The translations under genes were made by a program, and so were the position numbers. From Pseudomonadota bacterium (lineage in GTDB: Bacteria > Pseudomonadota > Gammaproteobacteria > Burkholderiales > Burkholderiaceae_C), in NCBI GenBank assembly GCA_018241185.1, contig JAFEEH010000205.1:1-56714 (forward strand): 56,714 bases of DNA. Reading direction: 5' to 3'. The first letter of the stretch is position 1; every line of letters begins with the position of its first letter. Of this stretch, positions 13,161-52,832 are shown piece after piece. The notes beneath the pieces were generated by a model that saw only the letters and a list, made by a program, of their open reading frames with translations, was not told the origin of the DNA and searched no databases.

Positions 13161-16100
13161 ATGCAACTCTCCCGCCGCCAGTTCATGAAAGTGACTGGCT
13201 CCACCCTGGCGGGCTCGAGTCTGGCACTGATGGGCTTCTCGCCGGCGACCGCGCTGGCCGAGGTGCGTCAGTACAAGCTCGCAGCCACCACGGTCACACG
13301 CCAGACCTGCACCTACTGTTCGGTGGGTTGCGGCATCCTCATGTACTCACTGGGCGACGGCGCGAAGAACGCCAAGTCCGCGGTGATCCACGTCGAGGGC
13401 GATCCCGACCACCCGGTCAATCGCGGCACGCTGTGTCCCAAGGGTGCGAGCCTGCTCGACATCATCAACAGCCCGAACCGGCTGCTGTACCCCGAGTACC
13501 GCGCGCCCGGCTCGAACGAGTGGAAGCGCATGTCCTGGGGCGAGGCCCTGGACCGCATCGCCAAGCTGCTCAAGGCCGACCGCGACGCGAACTTCATCGA
13601 GACCACGGCCGACGGCAAGCGCGTCAACCGCTGGACCTCCACCGGCATGCTGGCCGCCTCGGCCTCCAGCAACGAAGCCGGCTACATCACCCACAAGGTC
13701 GCCCGCAGCTGGGGCCTTCTTCCTTTCGACAATCAAGCGCGTGTCTGACACGGCCCGACGGTGGCAGGTCTTGCCCCGACGTTTGGCCGTGGAGCGATGA
13801 CGAACCATTGGGTCGACATCAAGAACGCGGATGTGATTCTGATCATGGGCGGCAATGCCGCCGAGGCGCACCCCTGCGGATTCAAGTGGGTGACGGAGGC
13901 GAAGGCGCACAACAAGGCGCACTTCATGGTGGTCGACCCCCGCTTCAACCGCTCGGCGTCGGTGGCCGACTTCTATGCGCCGATCCGTTCCGGGAGCGAC
14001 ATCGCCTTCCTCGGCGGGATCATCAATTACCTCATCAGCAACGACAAGATCCATCACGAGTATGTGAAGGCGTACACCGACTTCACCTTCCTCGTGCGTG
14101 AGGACTTCAACTTCGACGAGGGCTACTTCTCCGGCTACAACGAGGAAAAGCGTCTCTACGACAAGACCAGCTGGGACTACCAGATCGGCGACGACGGCTT
14201 CGTCAAGACCGACCCCACACTGCAGGACCCGCGCTGCGTCTTCCAGCTGCTCAAGAAGCACTACGCCATCTACACGCCCGAGAAGGTCGAGAGCGTCTGC
14301 GGCACGCCCAAGGCCAAGTTCCTGCACGTGTGCGAGCAGTTCGCGTCCACGGCCGTCGCCGGCCGCGCCGCGACCATCATGTACGCCCTGGGCTGGACGC
14401 AGCACTCGACCGGAGCGCAGACCCTGCGCTGCGCGGCGATGGTGCAACTGCTGTGCGGCAACATCGGCGTGGCGGGCGGCGGCATGAACGCGCTGCGTGG
14501 CCACTCGAACATCCAGGGCCTGACCGACCTGGGCCTGCTGTCGGCCAGCCTGCCGGGCTACCTCACGCTGCCGCGCGAGGCCGAGCAGGACTACCAGGCC
14601 TACGTGGGCGCCCGCACGCAGAAGCCGCTGCGCAAGGGCCAGATGAGCTACTGGCAGAACTACCCCAAGTTCCACGTCAGTCTCATGAAGGCGTGGTACG
14701 GCCCGGCCGCCACGGCCGAGAACAACTGGGCCTACGACTGGCTGCCCAAGCTCGACAAGGAGTACGACATGCTCCAGATCTTCGAGCTCATGCATGAAGG
14801 CAAGGTCAACGGCTACCTGGCGCAGGGCTTCAACCCGCTCGCCTCGCTGTCGGACAAGAACCGCAACCGCGACGCGCTGGCCAAGCTCAAGTTCCTGGTC
14901 GTCATGGACCCGCTGGCCACCGAAACCTCGGAGTTCTGGAAGAACCACGGCGAATACAACGACGTGGATGCCTCCAAGATCCAGACCGAGGTGTTCCGCC
15001 TGCCGACCACCTGCTTTGCCGAGGAAGAGGGTTCCATCGTCAGCTCCTCGCGCGTGCTGCAGTGGCACTGGAAGGCGGCCGAGCCGCCCGGCGAGGCACG
15101 CACCGACATCGCGATCATGTCGGGCCTGCACCTGCGCATGAAGGAGCTGTACGCCAAACAGGGCGGCAAGTTCGGCGACCCCATCCTCAACCTCTGGTGG
15201 CCGTACAACCATGCGGCCGAGCCGAGCCCGGCCGAAGTCGCGAAGGAGTACAACGGCCGCGCGCTGGTCGACCTGAAGGATCCGGCCGACCCGACCAAGG
15301 TCACGCGCAAGGCGGGCGAGCAACTCGCCGGCTTCGCCGAGTTGAAGGACGACGGCAGCACCGTCGGCGGCTGCTGGATCTTCTCCGGTTGCTGGACGCA
15401 GGCGGGCAACCAGATGGCGCGGCGCGACAACGCCGACCCCACCGGCATCGGCAACACGCTGGGCTGGGCCTGGGCCTGGCCGGCGAACCGCCGCGTGCTC
15501 TACAACCGCGCCTCTTGCGACGAGAGCGGCAAACCCTTCAACCCGCGCCGCAAGCTGGTGAACTGGAACGGCAGTGCCTGGGTGGGGGCCGACGTGCCCG
15601 ACTACGGCGCCACCCTCGCGCCCGACGTCGGCGCCGGCCCGTTCATCATGAACCCCGAGGGTGTTGCGCGCTTCTTCTCCCGCAAGGGGCTGAACGAAGG
15701 GCCATTCCCGACGCACTACGAGCCCTTCGACACGCCCGTGGGCTACAACCCCATGTACCCCAAGAACGCCAAGGCGACCAGCTCGCCTGCGGCGCGCGTG
15801 TTCAAGTCCGTGTGGGACACCTTCGGCAAGGCGGACGAGTTCCCGCACGTGGGCATCACCTACCGCCTGACGGAGCACTTCCACTACTGGACCAAGCACG
15901 CCCTGCTCAATGCGATCACGCAGCCCGAGCAGTTCGTGGAGATCGGCGAGGCGCTGGCGCAGAGCCTGGGCATTGCCAACGGCCAGATGGTGAAGGTCAG
16001 CTCCAAGCGCGGCTTCATCAAGGCTGCGGCGGTGGTCACCAAGCGCATGAAGCCGATGACCATCGAGGGCAAGACGGTGCACCACGTCGGCATTCCCATC

Positions 16101-16226
16101 CACTGGGGCTTCAAGGGCGTGACCAAGCCAGGCTTCCTGGCCAACACGCTGACGCCTTTCGTGGGCGACGCCAACACCAACACGCCCGAGTTCAAGACCT
16201 TCCTGGTCAAGGTGGAAAAGGTCTAG
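13161..16226 (+). CDS. fdnG: Formate dehydrogenase, selenocysteine-containing catalytic (alpha) subunit, FdnG/FdoG type
   Basis: Oxidises formate to CO2 at a periplasmic molybdopterin site and feeds electrons into the quinone pool. The frame is 1,021 residues when the TGA at 13746-13748 is read as selenocysteine; this is residue 196, the same number as in E. coli FdnG, in the context NQARV-U-HGPTV. A twin-arginine signal (SRRQFMK, residues 4-10) predicts Tat export of the folded enzyme. A [4Fe-4S] site is formed by Cys50, Cys53, Cys57 and Cys92, also at E. coli numbering. The frame is continuous on both sides of the TGA, and a SECIS hairpin follows it. The fdnH-like and fdnI-like genes follow. 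An annotation stopping at TGA would wrongly give two ORFs (13161-13748 and 13761-16226). Confidence 0.96.
13746..13790 (+). promoter_or_regulatory. Bacterial SECIS element and selenocysteine UGA codon
   Basis: The UGA (13746-13748) is followed by a hairpin in the coding region. Bases 13750-13755 (ACGGCC) pair with 13785-13790 (GGCCGT), 13758-13760 pair with 13780-13782, and 13763-13766 (GGCA) pair with 13772-13775 (TGCC). The apical loop is GGTCT (13767-13771). Both the GGUCU loop and its distance of 18 bases from the UGA match the E. coli fdhF/fdnG elements bound by SelB. The cognate selA, selB, selC and selD genes are all in this window. Confidence 0.93.
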
Positions 16227-24025: not shown

Positions 24026-24118
24026 GGAAGGCAAACGCACCCGGTGGTGCGCCCGGGCTTCAAACCCGGTAGGGGGCGCCAGCCGCTTCCTGGTCGGTTC
24101 GACTCCGGCTGCTTTCCG
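24026..24118 (+). tRNA. selC: Selenocysteine tRNA (anticodon TCA)
   Basis: Aligns along its length with E. coli selC: an 8-base-pair acceptor stem (GGAAGGCA with TGCTTTCC), the anticodon TCA at 24060-24062 in the loop CTTCAAA flanked by CCCGGG/CCCGG, a long variable arm, and the T loop GGTTCGACTCC. Discriminator G is at 24118. The next bases are CCCA rather than CCA, so the 3' CCA may not be encoded exactly. It follows selB on the same strand and supplies the tRNA for the fdnG UGA. Confidence 0.95.
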
Positions 24119-24185
24119 CCCAATACGTTTCGAGACTTCCCTGCTGCTCGTATGCCACGGCCGCTGCATTGAAGCCAACGTCGTC

Positions 24186-48373: not shown

Positions 48374-49498
48374 ATGTCCTTCCTCCATGTCCTCGAACCC
48401 ATCGTGCGCGACACCATCGCGCCCGCCGCCGCCGACACCGACCGCGAGGCGCGCTTTCCGCGCCGGGCCCTCGACGCACTGGGCGCCGCGGGCCTGCTGG
48501 GGCTGTTGAGCAGCCGGGAGGTGGGCGGCCTCGGCCTGGGACTCGGCGAGGCGGCGCAGGTGGTGCAGCGCATCGCGCAGGACTGCCCCTCGACCGCCAT
48601 GGTGCTGACCATGCACTACGCAGGCACCGCGCTGGTCGACAAATACGGACCGCCCGAGGTGCGCCGGGCCATCGCGGCCGGCAGGCACATCACGACGCTG
48701 GCCTGGTCCGAGATGGGCTCTCGCAGCCACTTCTGGGCGCCCGTGGGCACGGCCTGCCGCGAGGGCGACGAGGTGGTGCTCGACGGCTTCAAGAGCATGG
48801 TCACGTCGGCGTCGGAGGCGGACTCGTACGTGTGGTCGTCGCGCCCCACTGAAGGCGAGGGACCGTCCAGCATCTGGCTGGTCGATACCAAGAAGCCGGG
48901 CCTCACGCGCACCGCCGTGTTCGACGGCATGGGACTGCGCGGAAACGCTTCGGCCCCGGTCAAGGCCGAGGGCGTGCGCATCCCGGGCGGCGCACTGCTG
49001 GGCGAGGACGGCAAGGGCGACGTGCTGATGAACAACGACGAACTGCCGGTGTTCGTGACGCTGATCGCGTCGTGCTCGGTGGGCATGATGGACGGCGTGC
49101 TCGCGCGGGCCACGGCCCACATCACGAAGAACCGCTTCGCCGAGAGCGGCAGCAGCATTTCCGACCTGCCGACGGTGCGTGCCTACCTCGCGCGTGCGCA
49201 GATCCGCGCCGACCAGGCCCGCGTGCTGCGCGACGATGCCCTGGCGGCCATGGCCGCCGGCCGCGCCGACACCATGCTGCGCGTATTGGAGGTGAAGGCG
49301 AGCGCCGCCGAAGCCGCGCTCGAAGTGACCGACACCGCCATGCGCATCTGCGGCGGCGCTGCCTTCCGCAAGGACGTGGGCATCGAGCGGCTGTTCCGCG
49401 ATGCACGCGCGGCGTCGATCATGGCGCCCACCTCGGACGTGCTGTACGACTTCATCGGCACCGCGCTCTGTGACGCAGTGGCCAAGGCCGCCGCATGA
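48374..49498 (+). CDS. Acyl-CoA dehydrogenase-family flavoprotein
   Basis: A 374-residue FAD enzyme of the acyl-CoA dehydrogenase fold. Family features: the N-terminal helical domain with LGAAGLLGLLSSREVGGLGL, the LAWSEMGSRSHFWAP segment that contacts flavin and substrate, TAVFDGMGLRGNASAPVKAE, and the C-terminal helices with RICGGAAFRKDVGIERLFRD. Members with this SExGSRSHFW pattern include enzymes on unusual substrates, so fatty-acyl-CoA should not be assumed. The ATG at 48374 has AGGAG six bases upstream. It leads a plus-strand set (binding-protein-like, ferritin-like, selD) separated from the next gene by 112 bases that hold a REP palindrome. Confidence 0.85.
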   Translation: MSFLHVLEPIVRDTIAPAAADTDREARFPRRALDALGAAGLLGLLSSREVGGLGLGLGEAAQVVQRIAQDCPSTAMVLTMHYAGTALVDKYGPPEVRRAIAAGRHITTLAWSEMGSRSHFWAPVGTACREGDEVVLDGFKSMVTSASEADSYVWSSRPTEGEGPSSIWLVDTKKPGLTRTAVFDGMGLRGNASAPVKAEGVRIPGGALLGEDGKGDVLMNNDELPVFVTLIASCSVGMMDGVLARATAHITKNRFAESGSSISDLPTVRAYLARAQIRADQARVLRDDALAAMAAGRADTMLRVLEVKASAAEAALEVTDTAMRICGGAAFRKDVGIERLFRDARAASIMAPTSDVLYDFIGTALCDAVAKAAA

Positions 49499-49518
49499 CG
49501 ATGGAAACTGTGCTCCGG

Positions 49519-49578
49519 CCGTTCGGGCTGAGCCTGTCGAAGCCCCGCGCCGGGCTTCGACAGGCTCAGGCTGAACGG
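49519..49578. repeat. REP-like palindrome, copy 4
   Basis: CCGTTCGGGCTGAGCCTG, TCGAAGCCCCGCGCCGGG and CTTCGACAGGCTCAGG, ending CTGAACGG: a near-perfect hairpin between the acyl-CoA-dehydrogenase-like gene and the binding-protein-like gene. As in other systems it could stabilise upstream mRNA or partly terminate transcription. Confidence 0.92.
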
Positions 49579-49610
49579 TGGAAGATTCGCTGACCGAACA
49601 ACCGCTTCCC

Positions 49611-50483
49611 ATGCCCCAACTCCAACCCCCACCCTTCATGCTCGGCGCCGTCGCCTACGCGCCCAAGGTCGTCACCATCTGGGAAGGCTTCAAGACCTAC
49701 CTGGCAGAGCGCGGCTTCGCGATGGACTACATCCTCTACTCGAACTACGAAACGCAGGTGGAGGCGCAGTTCGCCGGCGACATCGCCTTCGCCTGGAACT
49801 CGCCCCTGGCCTGGGTGCGCGCCGACCGCATGGCGCGTGCGCGCGGCCAGGCCGTGCAATCTCTGGTGATGCGCGACACCGACCAGGACCTGCAGTCCGT
49901 GCTGGTGGTCAAGGCCGACAGCCCGGTGCAGTCGCTGGCCGACCTCGAGGGCAAGACGGTCGGCTTCGGCGCCATCGATTCGCCCCAGGCCACGCTGATC
50001 CCGCTGGACCACCTGCAGCACGAGGGCGACCTCGCGCCCGGCAAGGACTACGAGGTGCGCCGCTTCGACGTGCTGGGCGGCAAGCACGGCGACCACATCG
50101 GCGGCGAGCGAGATGCGGCCGTCGCGATGCTGGCGGGCGAGGTGGCCGCGAGCTGGATGATCGCGGGCAACCACCGTGCCTTCGCCAAGGAAGGCACCTT
50201 GCCCGCCGGCGCCACGCGCGTGCTGGCCACCACCGGCTTGTATGACCACTGCACGATGACCGTGAGCCCCGGCGTGGATGCGGCAGCATCGCAGCGTTTT
50301 GCCGAGCTGCTGCTGGCGATGGACTGGAACGACGCCAAGGTGCGCCCGCTGCTGGAACTGGAAGGCCTGAAGCAGTGGCGCGAGGGCCGGGCCAGCGGCT
50401 TCCACCTGCTGGAGCGCGCCGCGACCGAACAGGGCTTCTATGACGCGCGTGGAAACATCGTCGCTGCCGACTATCGATATTGA
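49611..50483 (+). CDS. Substrate-binding-protein-like (PhnD/SsuA/Thi5-fold) protein without a signal peptide
   Basis: A 290-residue protein with the two-lobed periplasmic-binding-protein pattern of the PhnD-like families: LGAVAYAPKVVTIWEGFKTY, an IAFAWNSPLAWV segment, VQSLADLEGKTVGFGAIDSP and a second-lobe DYEVRRFDVLGGKHGDHIGG. No signal peptide or lipobox precedes the mature-type start, and no ABC permease or ATPase gene is adjacent, so a cytoplasmic binding protein or an enzyme on this fold (as with Thi5 or MqnA) is possible. I prefer the ATG at 49611; the GTG at 49578 lies in the REP palindrome. Its last 44 bases overlap the ferritin-like gene. Confidence 0.8.
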   Translation: MPQLQPPPFMLGAVAYAPKVVTIWEGFKTYLAERGFAMDYILYSNYETQVEAQFAGDIAFAWNSPLAWVRADRMARARGQAVQSLVMRDTDQDLQSVLVVKADSPVQSLADLEGKTVGFGAIDSPQATLIPLDHLQHEGDLAPGKDYEVRRFDVLGGKHGDHIGGERDAAVAMLAGEVAASWMIAGNHRAFAKEGTLPAGATRVLATTGLYDHCTMTVSPGVDAAASQRFAELLLAMDWNDAKVRPLLELEGLKQWREGRASGFHLLERAATEQGFYDARGNIVAADYRY

Positions 50484-51714
50484 GGCGCTGGGCTTCGACG
50501 CCGGCGCGCACCTGCTGGTGCGGCACGCGCTGGCGGCCTTGCCCGAGGGCGAGTCGCTGCGCGTGACCGGGCGTGCGCCCGGCTGGCAGGCGCAACTGGC
50601 CGACTGGTGCCGCGTGCAAGGCCACACCTTGTCCTGGCCGTCACTCCCTCTCCCTCTGGGAGAGGGCGGGGGAGAGGGCACCCAGGCGGTCGATGAGGCG
50701 CCGACGCCCATCGCCCTCATCGCCCCCGGCACCGCCGAGTCCGGCCGATGGCGCGACGCCGCGCACACCGGCCATGCCGACCTGCGCGCCGAGGGCGGGG
50801 TGCTGCCGCATGCGCCCGCGCATTGGGGCCTGGCGGCCCGCGGCGCCCGCGTGGAGGCCGGCTCGCCCGACATCGCCTTCCGCCTCGACCGCAAGGAGGA
50901 GCTCTGGGCCGAGAACGCCGCCGAGCTGTACGCGCAGGCCGTGGGCGCGCAATGGGACCCGGAGGCCGCGCTGGACTGGGACGTGACCTTCACGCATCCG
51001 CCCGAAGTGGAGGCCGCGATTCGCCAGGTCATGACCTACATGGTCGAGAACGAGAACGCCGCGCTGCTGGTGCCCGCTCGCTTCCTCGGCCAGATCCATC
51101 CTCACTACCGCGAACTCCAGGCCGCGCTGGCGATCCAGGTGGCCGACGAGGCGCGACACATCGAGGTGTTCACCCGGCGCATTCGCCTGGGCGGCGGCGA
51201 GCCGGCCCTCTCGACCGCGGGCGGCCAGGCTTCGCTCAAGAGCCTGCTCGACGAACCGGACTTCTCCGTCGCCGGCTTCCTGCTGTCGGTGCTGGGTGAA
51301 GGCACCTTCGTCAACCTGCTGCAGTTCCTGGCCGCGCATGCGCCCGACCCGCTCACGCGGCAGATCGCGAAGCTGGCCGCCCGCGACGAGGCGCGCCATG
51401 TGGCGCTGGGCATGTCGCACCTGCTGTACCGCCTGCAGCAGGATCCCGCCCTGCGCGGACGGCTGGCTCGGGCCGTGGAGGCGCGGCACGACAGCCTGGC
51501 CGGCACCGCGGGCCTCAACGAAGAGGTGTTCGACGCCCTGGTGCTCATCGGCGCCGGCGAGTTGACGCCGCAAGCCGTCGCCTCTGGCTTTGCCAAGGTG
51601 CAGCAGCTCATGCGCGAGATGGCCGACGGCCGCTTCACCCGTTTGCTGCGCCTGGGCTTCGACCGCACCGAGGCCGAGCGCCTCTCCGCGCTGCATACGC
51701 GAAACTTCATGTGA
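50440..51714 (+). CDS. Cys-less TusA-like domain fused to a ferritin-like diiron domain
   Basis: A 424-residue protein of unknown function. Residues ~10-65 have the beta-alpha-beta pattern of TusA/SirA sulfur-transfer proteins (IDIEALGFDAGAHLLVRHAL, then GRAPGWQAQLADWCRVQGHT), but the Cys-Pro active site is absent. After a low-complexity linker that coincides with a repeat (50645-50679), residues ~170-400 form a ferritin-like helical domain. Its probable diiron ligands are in MVENENAALLVP, DEARHIEVFTRR, LGEGTFVNLLQF and RDEARHVALG. The ATG at 50440 lies inside the previous gene and the stop reaches the selD leader, so the genes are tightly linked. An oxygenase or oxidase role is inferred from the fold only. 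Confidence 0.75.
   Translation: MTRVETSSLPTIDIEALGFDAGAHLLVRHALAALPEGESLRVTGRAPGWQAQLADWCRVQGHTLSWPSLPLPLGEGGGEGTQAVDEAPTPIALIAPGTAESGRWRDAAHTGHADLRAEGGVLPHAPAHWGLAARGARVEAGSPDIAFRLDRKEELWAENAAELYAQAVGAQWDPEAALDWDVTFTHPPEVEAAIRQVMTYMVENENAALLVPARFLGQIHPHYRELQAALAIQVADEARHIEVFTRRIRLGGGEPALSTAGGQASLKSLLDEPDFSVAGFLLSVLGEGTFVNLLQFLAAHAPDPLTRQIAKLAARDEARHVALGMSHLLYRLQQDPALRGRLARAVEARHDSLAGTAGLNEEVFDALVLIGAGELTPQAVASGFAKVQQLMREMADGRFTRLLRLGFDRTEAERLSALHTRNFM
50645..50679 (+). repeat. Palindromic GC-rich repeat inserted in frame in the ferritin-like gene
   Basis: TCCCTCTCCCTCTGGGAGAG followed by GGCGGGGGAGAGGG is a hairpin-forming element of the same type as that at 22060-22096 in selB. Here it encodes the low-complexity linker SLPLPLGEGGGEG between the TusA-like and ferritin-like domains. 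Confidence 0.8.
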
Positions 51715-51770
51715 GCGGCGTGCCCGGTGAGGGCATTGCCTTTTTGAATCCCTTCCTTGACCCGACGCCC

Positions 51771-52832
51771 ATGACTGCAGCCACCGATTCCACCCCGCGC
51801 CTCACTTCCCTGTCCCACGGCGGAGGCTGCGGCTGCAAGATCGCGCCCGGCGTGCTCTCCGAATTGCTCGCCAAGAGCAGCCTGCCGCCCATGGTCTTCC
51901 CCGACCTGCTGGTCGGCACCGAGACGGCCGACGATGCGGCCGTCTACCGCATCAACGACCGCCAGGCCATCGTCGCGACCACCGACTTCTTCATGCCCAT
52001 CGTGGACGACCCGCGCGACTTCGGCCGCATCGCGGCGACCAATGCGCTGTCGGACCTGTACGCCATGGGCGCGCAGCCGCTGATGGCCCTGGCCATCGTG
52101 GGCATGCCGATCAACGTGCTGCCGCACGAGGTCATCGCGAAGATCCTCGAAGGCGGCGAATCGGTGTGTCGCGAGGCGGGCATTCCGCTCGCGGGCGGGC
52201 ACTCCATCGATTCGGTCGAGCCGATCTACGGCCTGGTGGGCATCGGCATCGTCGAGATCGAGCACCTCAAGCGCAACGCCACCGCGCAGCCCGGCGACGT
52301 GCTGATCCTCGGCAAGCCGCTGGGCGTGGGCATCCTGTCGGCGGCGTTGAAGAAGGGCGAGCTCGATGCCGATGGCTACGCCGCCATGATCGAGGCGACT
52401 ACCAAGCTGAATCGCCCAGGTACCGAGTTGGCGCGTCTGCCCGGCGTGCACGCGATGACCGACGTGACCGGCTTCGGCCTGCTGGGCCACACGCTCGAGC
52501 TGGCGCGGGGCGCCGGGCTGACAGCGCACATCGACGCCAAGGCCTTGCCGTGGTTGCCCGGGGTACGGGCGCTGGCCGAGCGCGGGGTCGTGACGGGTGC
52601 TTCAGGACGCAATTGGGCGTCGTATGGGGCGGATGTGCGGGGATTGGAGAGCGATGCGGTGCTGCGCGCGCTGTTGACGGATCCGCAGACGTCGGGGGGG
52701 CTGTTGGTGGCTTGCGGAGCAGAGGCCGTCAGCGAAGTGCTCGCCGTGTTTGGGCGGGAAGGCTTCGGCGAAGCTTCTGTCATAGGGCACGTGGCTGCTG
52801 AGGCGCCGGGTGTGGCCGTTGTGGATCTGTAG
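51771..52832 (+). CDS. selD: Selenide, water dikinase (selenophosphate synthase)
   Basis: Makes selenophosphate, the selenium donor for SelA (and for other selenium pathways), from selenide and ATP. The 353-residue protein has the glycine-rich N-terminal loop SHGGGCGCKIAP with the catalytic cysteine (Cys20 by this start) and its partner Lys23, then TADDAAVYRINDRQAIVATT, the GRIAATNALSDLYAMGAQPL core, GGHSIDSVEPIYGLVGIG and TGFGLLGHTLELARGAG. This is the Cys form, not itself a selenoprotein. The ATG at 51771 is preferred over the GTG at 51711 that overlaps the previous stop (it would add about 20 residues). Its neighbours are the flavoprotein, binding-protein-like and ferritin-like genes, not selA-selB. 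No selU or yedF follows. Confidence 0.95.
   Translation: MTAATDSTPRLTSLSHGGGCGCKIAPGVLSELLAKSSLPPMVFPDLLVGTETADDAAVYRINDRQAIVATTDFFMPIVDDPRDFGRIAATNALSDLYAMGAQPLMALAIVGMPINVLPHEVIAKILEGGESVCREAGIPLAGGHSIDSVEPIYGLVGIGIVEIEHLKRNATAQPGDVLILGKPLGVGILSAALKKGELDADGYAAMIEATTKLNRPGTELARLPGVHAMTDVTGFGLLGHTLELARGAGLTAHIDAKALPWLPGVRALAERGVVTGASGRNWASYGADVRGLESDAVLRALLTDPQTSGGLLVACGAEAVSEVLAVFGREGFGEASVIGHVAAEAPGVAVVDL

Follow-up and report, generated by a model that had tools for sequence, protein, structure and literature searches.

The window analyzed here (the whole 56,714-nucleotide contig JAFEEH010000205.1 of assembly GCA_018241185.1, from a comamonad close to Xenophilus) carries three genes upstream of selD, designated open reading frames (ORFs) ORF1, ORF2, and ORF3 and together the trio, which are genetically associated with the sel genes. 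The trio probably helps bacteria to obtain or deliver selenium. More specifically, ORF1-ORF2-ORF3 may be a selenium accessory operon acting upstream of or at SelD, that is, an oxygen-dependent route that supplies selenium to SelD, a reading that we consider evenly poised. The genes of the locus are as follows.

48374..49498, plus strand: ORF1, flavoprotein with an acyl-CoA-dehydrogenase fold, ATG start, Ala at the position of the catalytic Glu
49611..50483, plus strand: ORF2, PhnD-type substrate-binding-protein fold without signal peptide, conserved ATG, invariant D-H-C
50440..51714, plus strand: ORF3, TusA-like domain (no CPxP Cys) joined to an AurF/VlmB-like ferritin-like domain with a diiron motif
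51774..52832, plus strand: selD, selenide water dikinase (TIGR00476, 432 bits, cut-off 125)

This plus-strand order of three genes and selD had been proposed in an earlier note made from the letters alone and was confirmed from the ORFs and family matches. The 44-base overlap between ORF2 and ORF3 that it described was measured at 50440–50483, and an overlap of 35–44 bases is found, at the chosen starts, in 49 of the 75 loci measured. Its statement that the third gene abuts selD holds for a GTG at 51711, which overlaps the ORF3 stop codon, but not for the ATG at 51774 that matches the related proteins and lies 59 bases past ORF3; in two Xenophilus relatives, this distance measures 31 and 45 bases. 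For ORF2, an alternative GTG at 49578 is also open. The ratio of nonsynonymous to synonymous differences (pN/pS) is 0.16–0.25 for the trio genes (nine comparisons with three relatives), and thus ORF1, ORF2, and ORF3 evolve under protein constraint.

A scan of 84,980 species genomes gave at least 375 related loci, and the best 80 of these were kept and fetched with up to 10 kb on each side. All three genes are present in the fetched stretch at 68 of the 80 loci, with the gene order of the window at 66. At 28 of the 80 loci the stretch also contains selA, selB, or selD, compared with approximately 0.9 expected (for a 5 Mb genome with three sel loci); 19 of the 28 have selD, and nine have selA and/or selB only. 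The weakest selA, selB, and selD matches in the linked loci score 483, 281, and 422 bits, respectively. The linkage recurs in 15 genera and in seven gene-order patterns, and the selenium link suggested by the earlier note is borne out by this recurrence.

Trio then selD: 10 rows (window included)
selA-trio-selB: 6 rows (in Azoarcus, selB is approximately 9 kb off)
selA-trio-selB with a facing selD: 5 rows
selA-selB-trio: 3 rows
selA-selB-trio then selD: 1 row
Trio facing selD-selB-selA: 3 rows
Trio divergent from selD-selA: 1 row

A tight selA-trio-selB arrangement occurs in ten loci from five genera, most commonly Variovorax. The gaps in nine of these ten loci are 13–91 bases before ORF1 and 2–16 bases before selB, and such short gaps indicate an arrangement as in one operon. 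On a tree of ORF3 (79 rows, built by a quick method), the linked or unlinked state requires 7 changes and the arrangements require 15, which argues that the linkage is not one inherited accident. A neighbor cluster of SelU (MnmH) was also found at ten loci, all of them with a linked selD; the nine that were scanned all lie above the SelU cut-off.

The association extends to genomes in which the genes are not adjacent. For the 52 loci without a linked selA, selB, or selD, 49 genomes were searched, a non-random sample not drawn entirely from the order of the window. SelD was found above the cut-off in 45 of the 49, SelU in 37, and SelA in 27, against a SelD background of 285/399 genomes in the order of the window, 86/229 in Caulobacterales, and 38.3% of bacteria as given in PMC5322559. 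The binomial p-values for 45/49 are 0.0005 against the order and approximately 6e-15 against 38.3% of bacteria; both are indicative, as related genomes are not independent. Five of the six Caulobacterales among the 49 have SelD (p = 0.03 against the Caulobacterales background), and the sixth has SelA. The earlier note had named a trio conserved in many genomes without selD as the outcome contrary to its idea, but only 4/49 have no SelD match at E ≤ 1e-30. All four are records of metagenome-assembled genomes, and three of them carry SelA (G832 and G833) or SelU (G841), while G805 has none of the three proteins. A second Delftia genome (G807) contains SelD, SelA, and SelU. The recurrent linkage and the frequency of SelD in genomes with an unlinked trio together counter the earlier caution that selD could be a hitchhiker.

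Among the 45 genomes with both SelD and the trio, 18 have SelU without SelA, seven have SelA without SelU, 18 have both, and two have neither. The presence of the trio in both SelA-only and SelU-only genomes suggests that it follows selenophosphate itself rather than one use of it. The 18 genomes with SelU and no SelA match led to rejection of a role confined to selenocysteine or formate dehydrogenase, and the seven with SelA and no SelU match to rejection of one confined to selenouridine. In five trio-carrying genomes (G834, G840, G844, G845, and G846), the SelD match contains one in-frame TGA, and SelD itself may be a selenoprotein there.

The 80 loci are distributed among beta-, gamma-, and alphaproteobacteria, with a few from acidobacteria, actinobacteria, and myxobacteria/deltaproteobacteria, and one from a rokubacterium. 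Within the 60 nearest genomes, ORF3 is present in 7/15 of the genus of the window, all seven with selD within approximately 4 kb; a further weak match in G037 covers the diiron domain only and was not counted. The trio or a remnant of it occurs in 8/399 genomes of the order panel (including the remnant with stops in G119, and G350, in which ORF3 ends at the contig end). The seven of these besides the genome of the window lack selD within their fetched stretches (6–18 kb), and SelD is encoded elsewhere in all seven. A full-length ORF3 was found in only 2/398 genomes of the phylum panel, namely the genome of the window and G168, with six weak matches that cover part of the diiron domain, and the trio occurs in 1/229 genomes of the Caulobacterales control. 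A mobile origin was rejected, as ORF3 had no match among 72,556 plasmid records (E ≤ 1e-20) and none among 50,697 phage records (E ≤ 1e-10). On the ORF3 tree, the closest sequence to the window's copy comes from Xenophilus aerolatus E41. Several copies appear damaged: ORF2 and ORF3 are broken in G119 (L093), stops lie within the matched range of ORF3 in L153 and of ORF2 in L181, and the ORF1 match in L113 covers only 120 bases.

ORF1 has the three-domain fold of the acyl-CoA dehydrogenases (ACADs), with the Pfam Acyl-CoA_dh N, M, and C (Acyl-CoA_dh_1) domains all above cut-off, in agreement with the earlier description of the first gene. Its match to NF049984 (Rv1679/FadE16) is 345 bits, under the cut-off of 600, and it also matches the models for SfnB and sulfinopropanoyl-CoA desulfinase at low scores. 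The Glu of the ACAD motif YEGT is the catalytic residue. In ORF1, a MAPTS sequence aligns with the YEGTS stretch of solved ACADs, and the position of the catalytic Glu (A351) is Ala in 31 and Gly in three of the 34 aligned members. With this residue replaced, ORF1 should not act as an ordinary acyl-CoA dehydrogenase.

ORF2 matches Pfam Phosphonate-bd (9e-32) and, under the cut-off of 400, NF049985 (Rv1680; 216 bits). Hydropathy alone is not decisive regarding a signal peptide. However, the invariant core residues G12, A13, V14, and Y16 begin approximately 12 residues from the N-terminus, which leaves no room for one, and the earlier call of a PhnD-fold protein lacking a signal peptide is upheld. 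The residues D212-H213-C214 are invariant (38/38), as are Asp-Ser-Pro-Gln at 123–126 (38/38). None of ORF1, ORF3, and selD in the set of the window is an ATP-binding cassette (ABC) partner gene.

ORF3 had been described as a fusion of a TusA-like domain with a ferritin-like diiron domain. The family matches AurF in 39 and TusA in 22 of 41 aligned members at E ≤ 0.01 (best TusA match 5e-6), although the copy in the window stays below the Pfam cut-offs (AurF, 21.9 bits against 29.6; TusA, 16.2 bits against 28.6). The diiron ligands E203, E205, E237, H240, E287, E317, and H320 are each present in 41/41 members. CPxP is the catalytic cysteine motif of TusA. This Cys is missing from ORF3, and no member (0/41) has a Cys within residues 15–30; the TusA-like N-terminus keeps a W-C-R motif with its Cys (C57) in 38/41. 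Among solved structures, the closest profile match is a VlmB homologue (PDB 6d9f, E = 2e-4), and a weak match to a MiaE-like chain was also obtained (E = 0.023). For ORF3 of the window, every Pfam and NCBIfam model stays under its cut-off, so ORF3 looks like an unnamed family; the best NCBIfam match over the 41 members is to an R2-like oxidase (8.6e-8). A CTCCCTCTGGGAGAGG repeat lies in frame within ORF3 at 50650–50665, in an extra stretch shared by the window, L002, and L003 and missing from L005, L006, and L016; the motif was found elsewhere in relatives as well.

The position beside selD is also taken by another type of gene. Within the genus of the window, the trio lies beside selD in 7/15 genomes and a selenate-type ABC binding protein in 6/15, with both in one (G001) and neither in three; in this panel, the two mostly replace each other. 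The binding protein of G001 passes TIGR04553 (369 bits, cut-off 250), and the five copies from genomes without the trio are 98–99% identical to it. By coordinates, 17 of the 60 nearest genomes encode such a binding protein no more than approximately 10 kb from selD (that of G001 and 16 others, 52–99% identical to it), and the neighborhood thus typically holds genes for selenium acquisition.

We infer a substrate, a need for oxygen, and a hand-over to SelD along the following lines. In the cytosol of aerobic bacteria, ORF2 may bind a selenium compound, which would be freed or converted oxidatively by ORF1, as a flavin enzyme whose dehydrogenase base has been lost and which may work with reduced flavin, together with ORF3, as a diiron enzyme of the oxygenase type with a TusA-like platform. 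Selenide or a protein-bound equivalent could then reach SelD. The trio would be an oxygen-dependent counterpart of selenium supply through selenocysteine lyase or through the methyl-selenium (mlp) clusters of anaerobes. Tentatively, the trio might even be the first donor system to provide SelD with selenium in an oxygen-dependent manner, in which flavin and diiron enzymes take selenium from a compound held by ORF2 and hand it to SelD, although we regard this stronger form as rather unlikely.

Several observations weigh against a supply route to SelD. Two peptide patterns in the diiron domain were used to find the 80 loci, which lean toward beta-proteobacteria, and 52 of them have no selA, selB, or selD in the stretch. 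In addition to the relatedness of the genomes, the order panel alone is weak, with SelD in 8/8 trio genomes against 277/391 of the others (p = 0.066). ORF1 is absent from the fetched stretch in seven loci that have sequence on both sides (L164, L172–175, L177, and L184) and contain ORF2-ORF3, which indicates that ORF1 need not always be close by. Both the trio and the selenate-type binding protein are present in 6/80 loci (L156, L158, L159, L161, L176, and L178), and the two are therefore not strict alternatives. Moreover, the relatives of ORF1 and ORF2 are named after Rv1679 and Rv1680 of M. tuberculosis, which is not known to have selD.

The same co-occurrence with SelD would be expected if the trio consumed selenophosphate for a selenium-containing small molecule or cofactor, as the earlier note suggested, beside its use for selenocysteine, selenouridine, molybdenum-cofactor selenium, and selenoneine. 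Oxidative enzymes suit the tailoring of small molecules, and G831 and G837 contain SelD and the trio with no SelA or SelU match. However, an independent use should often keep SelD alone, which is the case in only two of the 45 genomes, both of them bins; a place inside the selA-selB operon would be unusual for an unrelated pathway; and no biosynthetic partner set stood out among 29 neighbors scanned by Pfam, a subset of the neighbor clusters. This downstream use is possible but doubtful, since the SelA-only and SelU-only genomes and the rarity of genomes with neither are easier to reconcile with a supply role than with a further outlet for selenophosphate. The trio may instead handle selenium without freeing it from organic compounds, by binding or oxidizing surplus selenide or a by-product, or as a protein-bound relay through C57 of ORF3 and C214 of ORF2. 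The TusA-like domain, the conservation of C57 (38/41) and C214 (38/38), and the way the trio tracks SelD whatever the selenium use are consistent with such a role, but the CPxP Cys of TusA is missing in all 41 members and a mere relay needs neither a full diiron site nor a flavoprotein, which makes this explanation unlikely.

It is very improbable that the trio has an unrelated role, for instance in sulfur acquisition, and lies near sel genes by chance or through a shared formate-dehydrogenase lifestyle. The unlinked majority of loci, the low-score matches of ORF1 to the SfnB and desulfinase models, and the commonness of selD in the order agree with coincidence, whereas the 28 linked loci against approximately 0.9 expected, in seven arrangements, do not; a lifestyle based on selenocysteine formate dehydrogenase cannot explain the trio in the 18 SelD-positive genomes with SelU and no SelA. 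A role directed at tRNA, on which SelA and SelU both act, is suggested by the weak likeness of ORF3 to ferritin-like tRNA hydroxylases (the MiaE-like match) and by a TrhO-type gene directly before ORF2 in L174; L173 also contains a gene of that cluster. Given that the VlmB homologue matches better, that the TrhO-type cluster occurs in only 4/80 loci, and that ORF1 and ORF2 have no tRNA link, such a role is hardly probable at all.

The neighborhoods of the unlinked loci gave no common partner: 20 neighbors from 14 unlinked loci were scanned by Pfam for another conserved gene that might explain them, and the families were mixed, with a CoA-transferase III in three (L172, L173, and L177). Nine representatives of the neighbor clusters comprised a rhodanese (SelU), FdhD, an ABC permease, an ABC ATPase, a short-chain dehydrogenase, an rRNA methylase, TrhO, and two without a family. 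TrhO is an oxygen-dependent tRNA uridine-34 hydroxylase. The two Caulobacterales loci L173 (4651–5727) and L174 (8147–9130) have a rhodanese-domain gene directly before ORF2, and the copy in L174 passes the NCBIfam TrhO cut-off.

Elsewhere in the window, selA (TIGR00474, 605 bits) and selB (TIGR00475, 368 bits) are both above cut-off, and together with selC they are located over 24 kb upstream, which agrees with the earlier remark that selD is apart from them. A formate dehydrogenase-N alpha gene beside selA/selB/selC (13161–16226, 1164 bits) carries an in-frame UGA (position 13746, context RVUHGPT) and is a selenoprotein gene. A repetitive extragenic palindromic (REP)-like repeat, GGGCTTCGACAGGCTCAG, occurs at 49528–49569 and in six other window matches; eight matches were found at ≤2 mismatches and none in shuffled sequences. 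The gap between ORF1 and ORF2 that holds this repeat is 112 bases in the window and 20 and 21 bases in two Xenophilus relatives. A scan for promoters and terminators gave no promoter-like site and two terminator-like sites, with no excess over shuffles. The two additional features are as follows.

24026–24120: selC, tRNA-Sec
49528..49569, no strand: palindromic REP-like repeat in the ORF1-ORF2 gap, outside the system

The selenium form used in vivo by SelD and its donor system are described as incompletely elucidated in a 2026 review (PMC13188914), and a 2022 review states that no high-affinity selenium transport system has been identified (PMC9312934). With a conserved operon that follows SelD through several phyla, the donor question becomes directly testable by deletion in culturable Variovorax or Hydrogenophaga. 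If the trio is a donor system, aerobic bacteria could produce selenoproteins and selenouridine with no dependence on free selenide. In the open-access (CC-licensed PMC) literature, including the accessible text of PMC2432076, no description of the trio was found, subscription papers being mostly outside this search. The trio is also not among YedE, YedF, the LysR-like gene, and DUF3343 in the accessible text of PMC5322559, or among the orphan-SelD neighbors in that of PMC5029168.

The trio resembles several known systems in part. YedE, YedF, and DUF3343 are SelD-linked accessory genes, and YedF, like ORF3, has a TusA/SirA-like domain; however, YedF combines SirA with DsrE and a CGXC motif, whereas ORF3 combines a TusA-like domain lacking CPxP with a diiron domain (PMC5322559). 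The selenoneine set senABC is known from Variovorax paradoxus (PMC10702425 and PMC10891094), but SenB is a Se-glycosyltransferase and the trio contains none; sen genes were not searched for in the trio genomes. The best matches of ORF1 and ORF2 are the families of Rv1679 (FadE16) and Rv1680 (NF049984 and NF049985), likewise neighbors, with the adjacency in M. tuberculosis taken from the gene numbers; at 345 of 600 and 216 of 400 bits, ORF1 and ORF2 are far under the cut-offs, and ORF3 has no such model. The putative selenate ABC binding protein TIGR04553 has a PhnD-type fold and is adjacent to selD in relatives, and ORF2 is 28% identical to it over 249 residues, but the TIGR04553-type copy of L016 starts with a signal-peptide-like N-terminus and is accompanied by PhnC- and PhnE-like genes, neither of which is the case for ORF2. 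The VlmB homologue and the AurF diiron oxygenases share the ferritin-like ExxH diiron architecture of ORF3, the match being remote, and they are not known to have a TusA-like domain, unlike ORF3. The lineages that bear the trio are mostly aerobic. In anaerobes, Type 1 mlp clusters co-occur strongly with selenocysteine genes and have been proposed to act in methyl-selenium metabolism, but these consist of corrinoid methyltransferases (PMC10418091), whereas the trio is a flavoprotein and diiron set.

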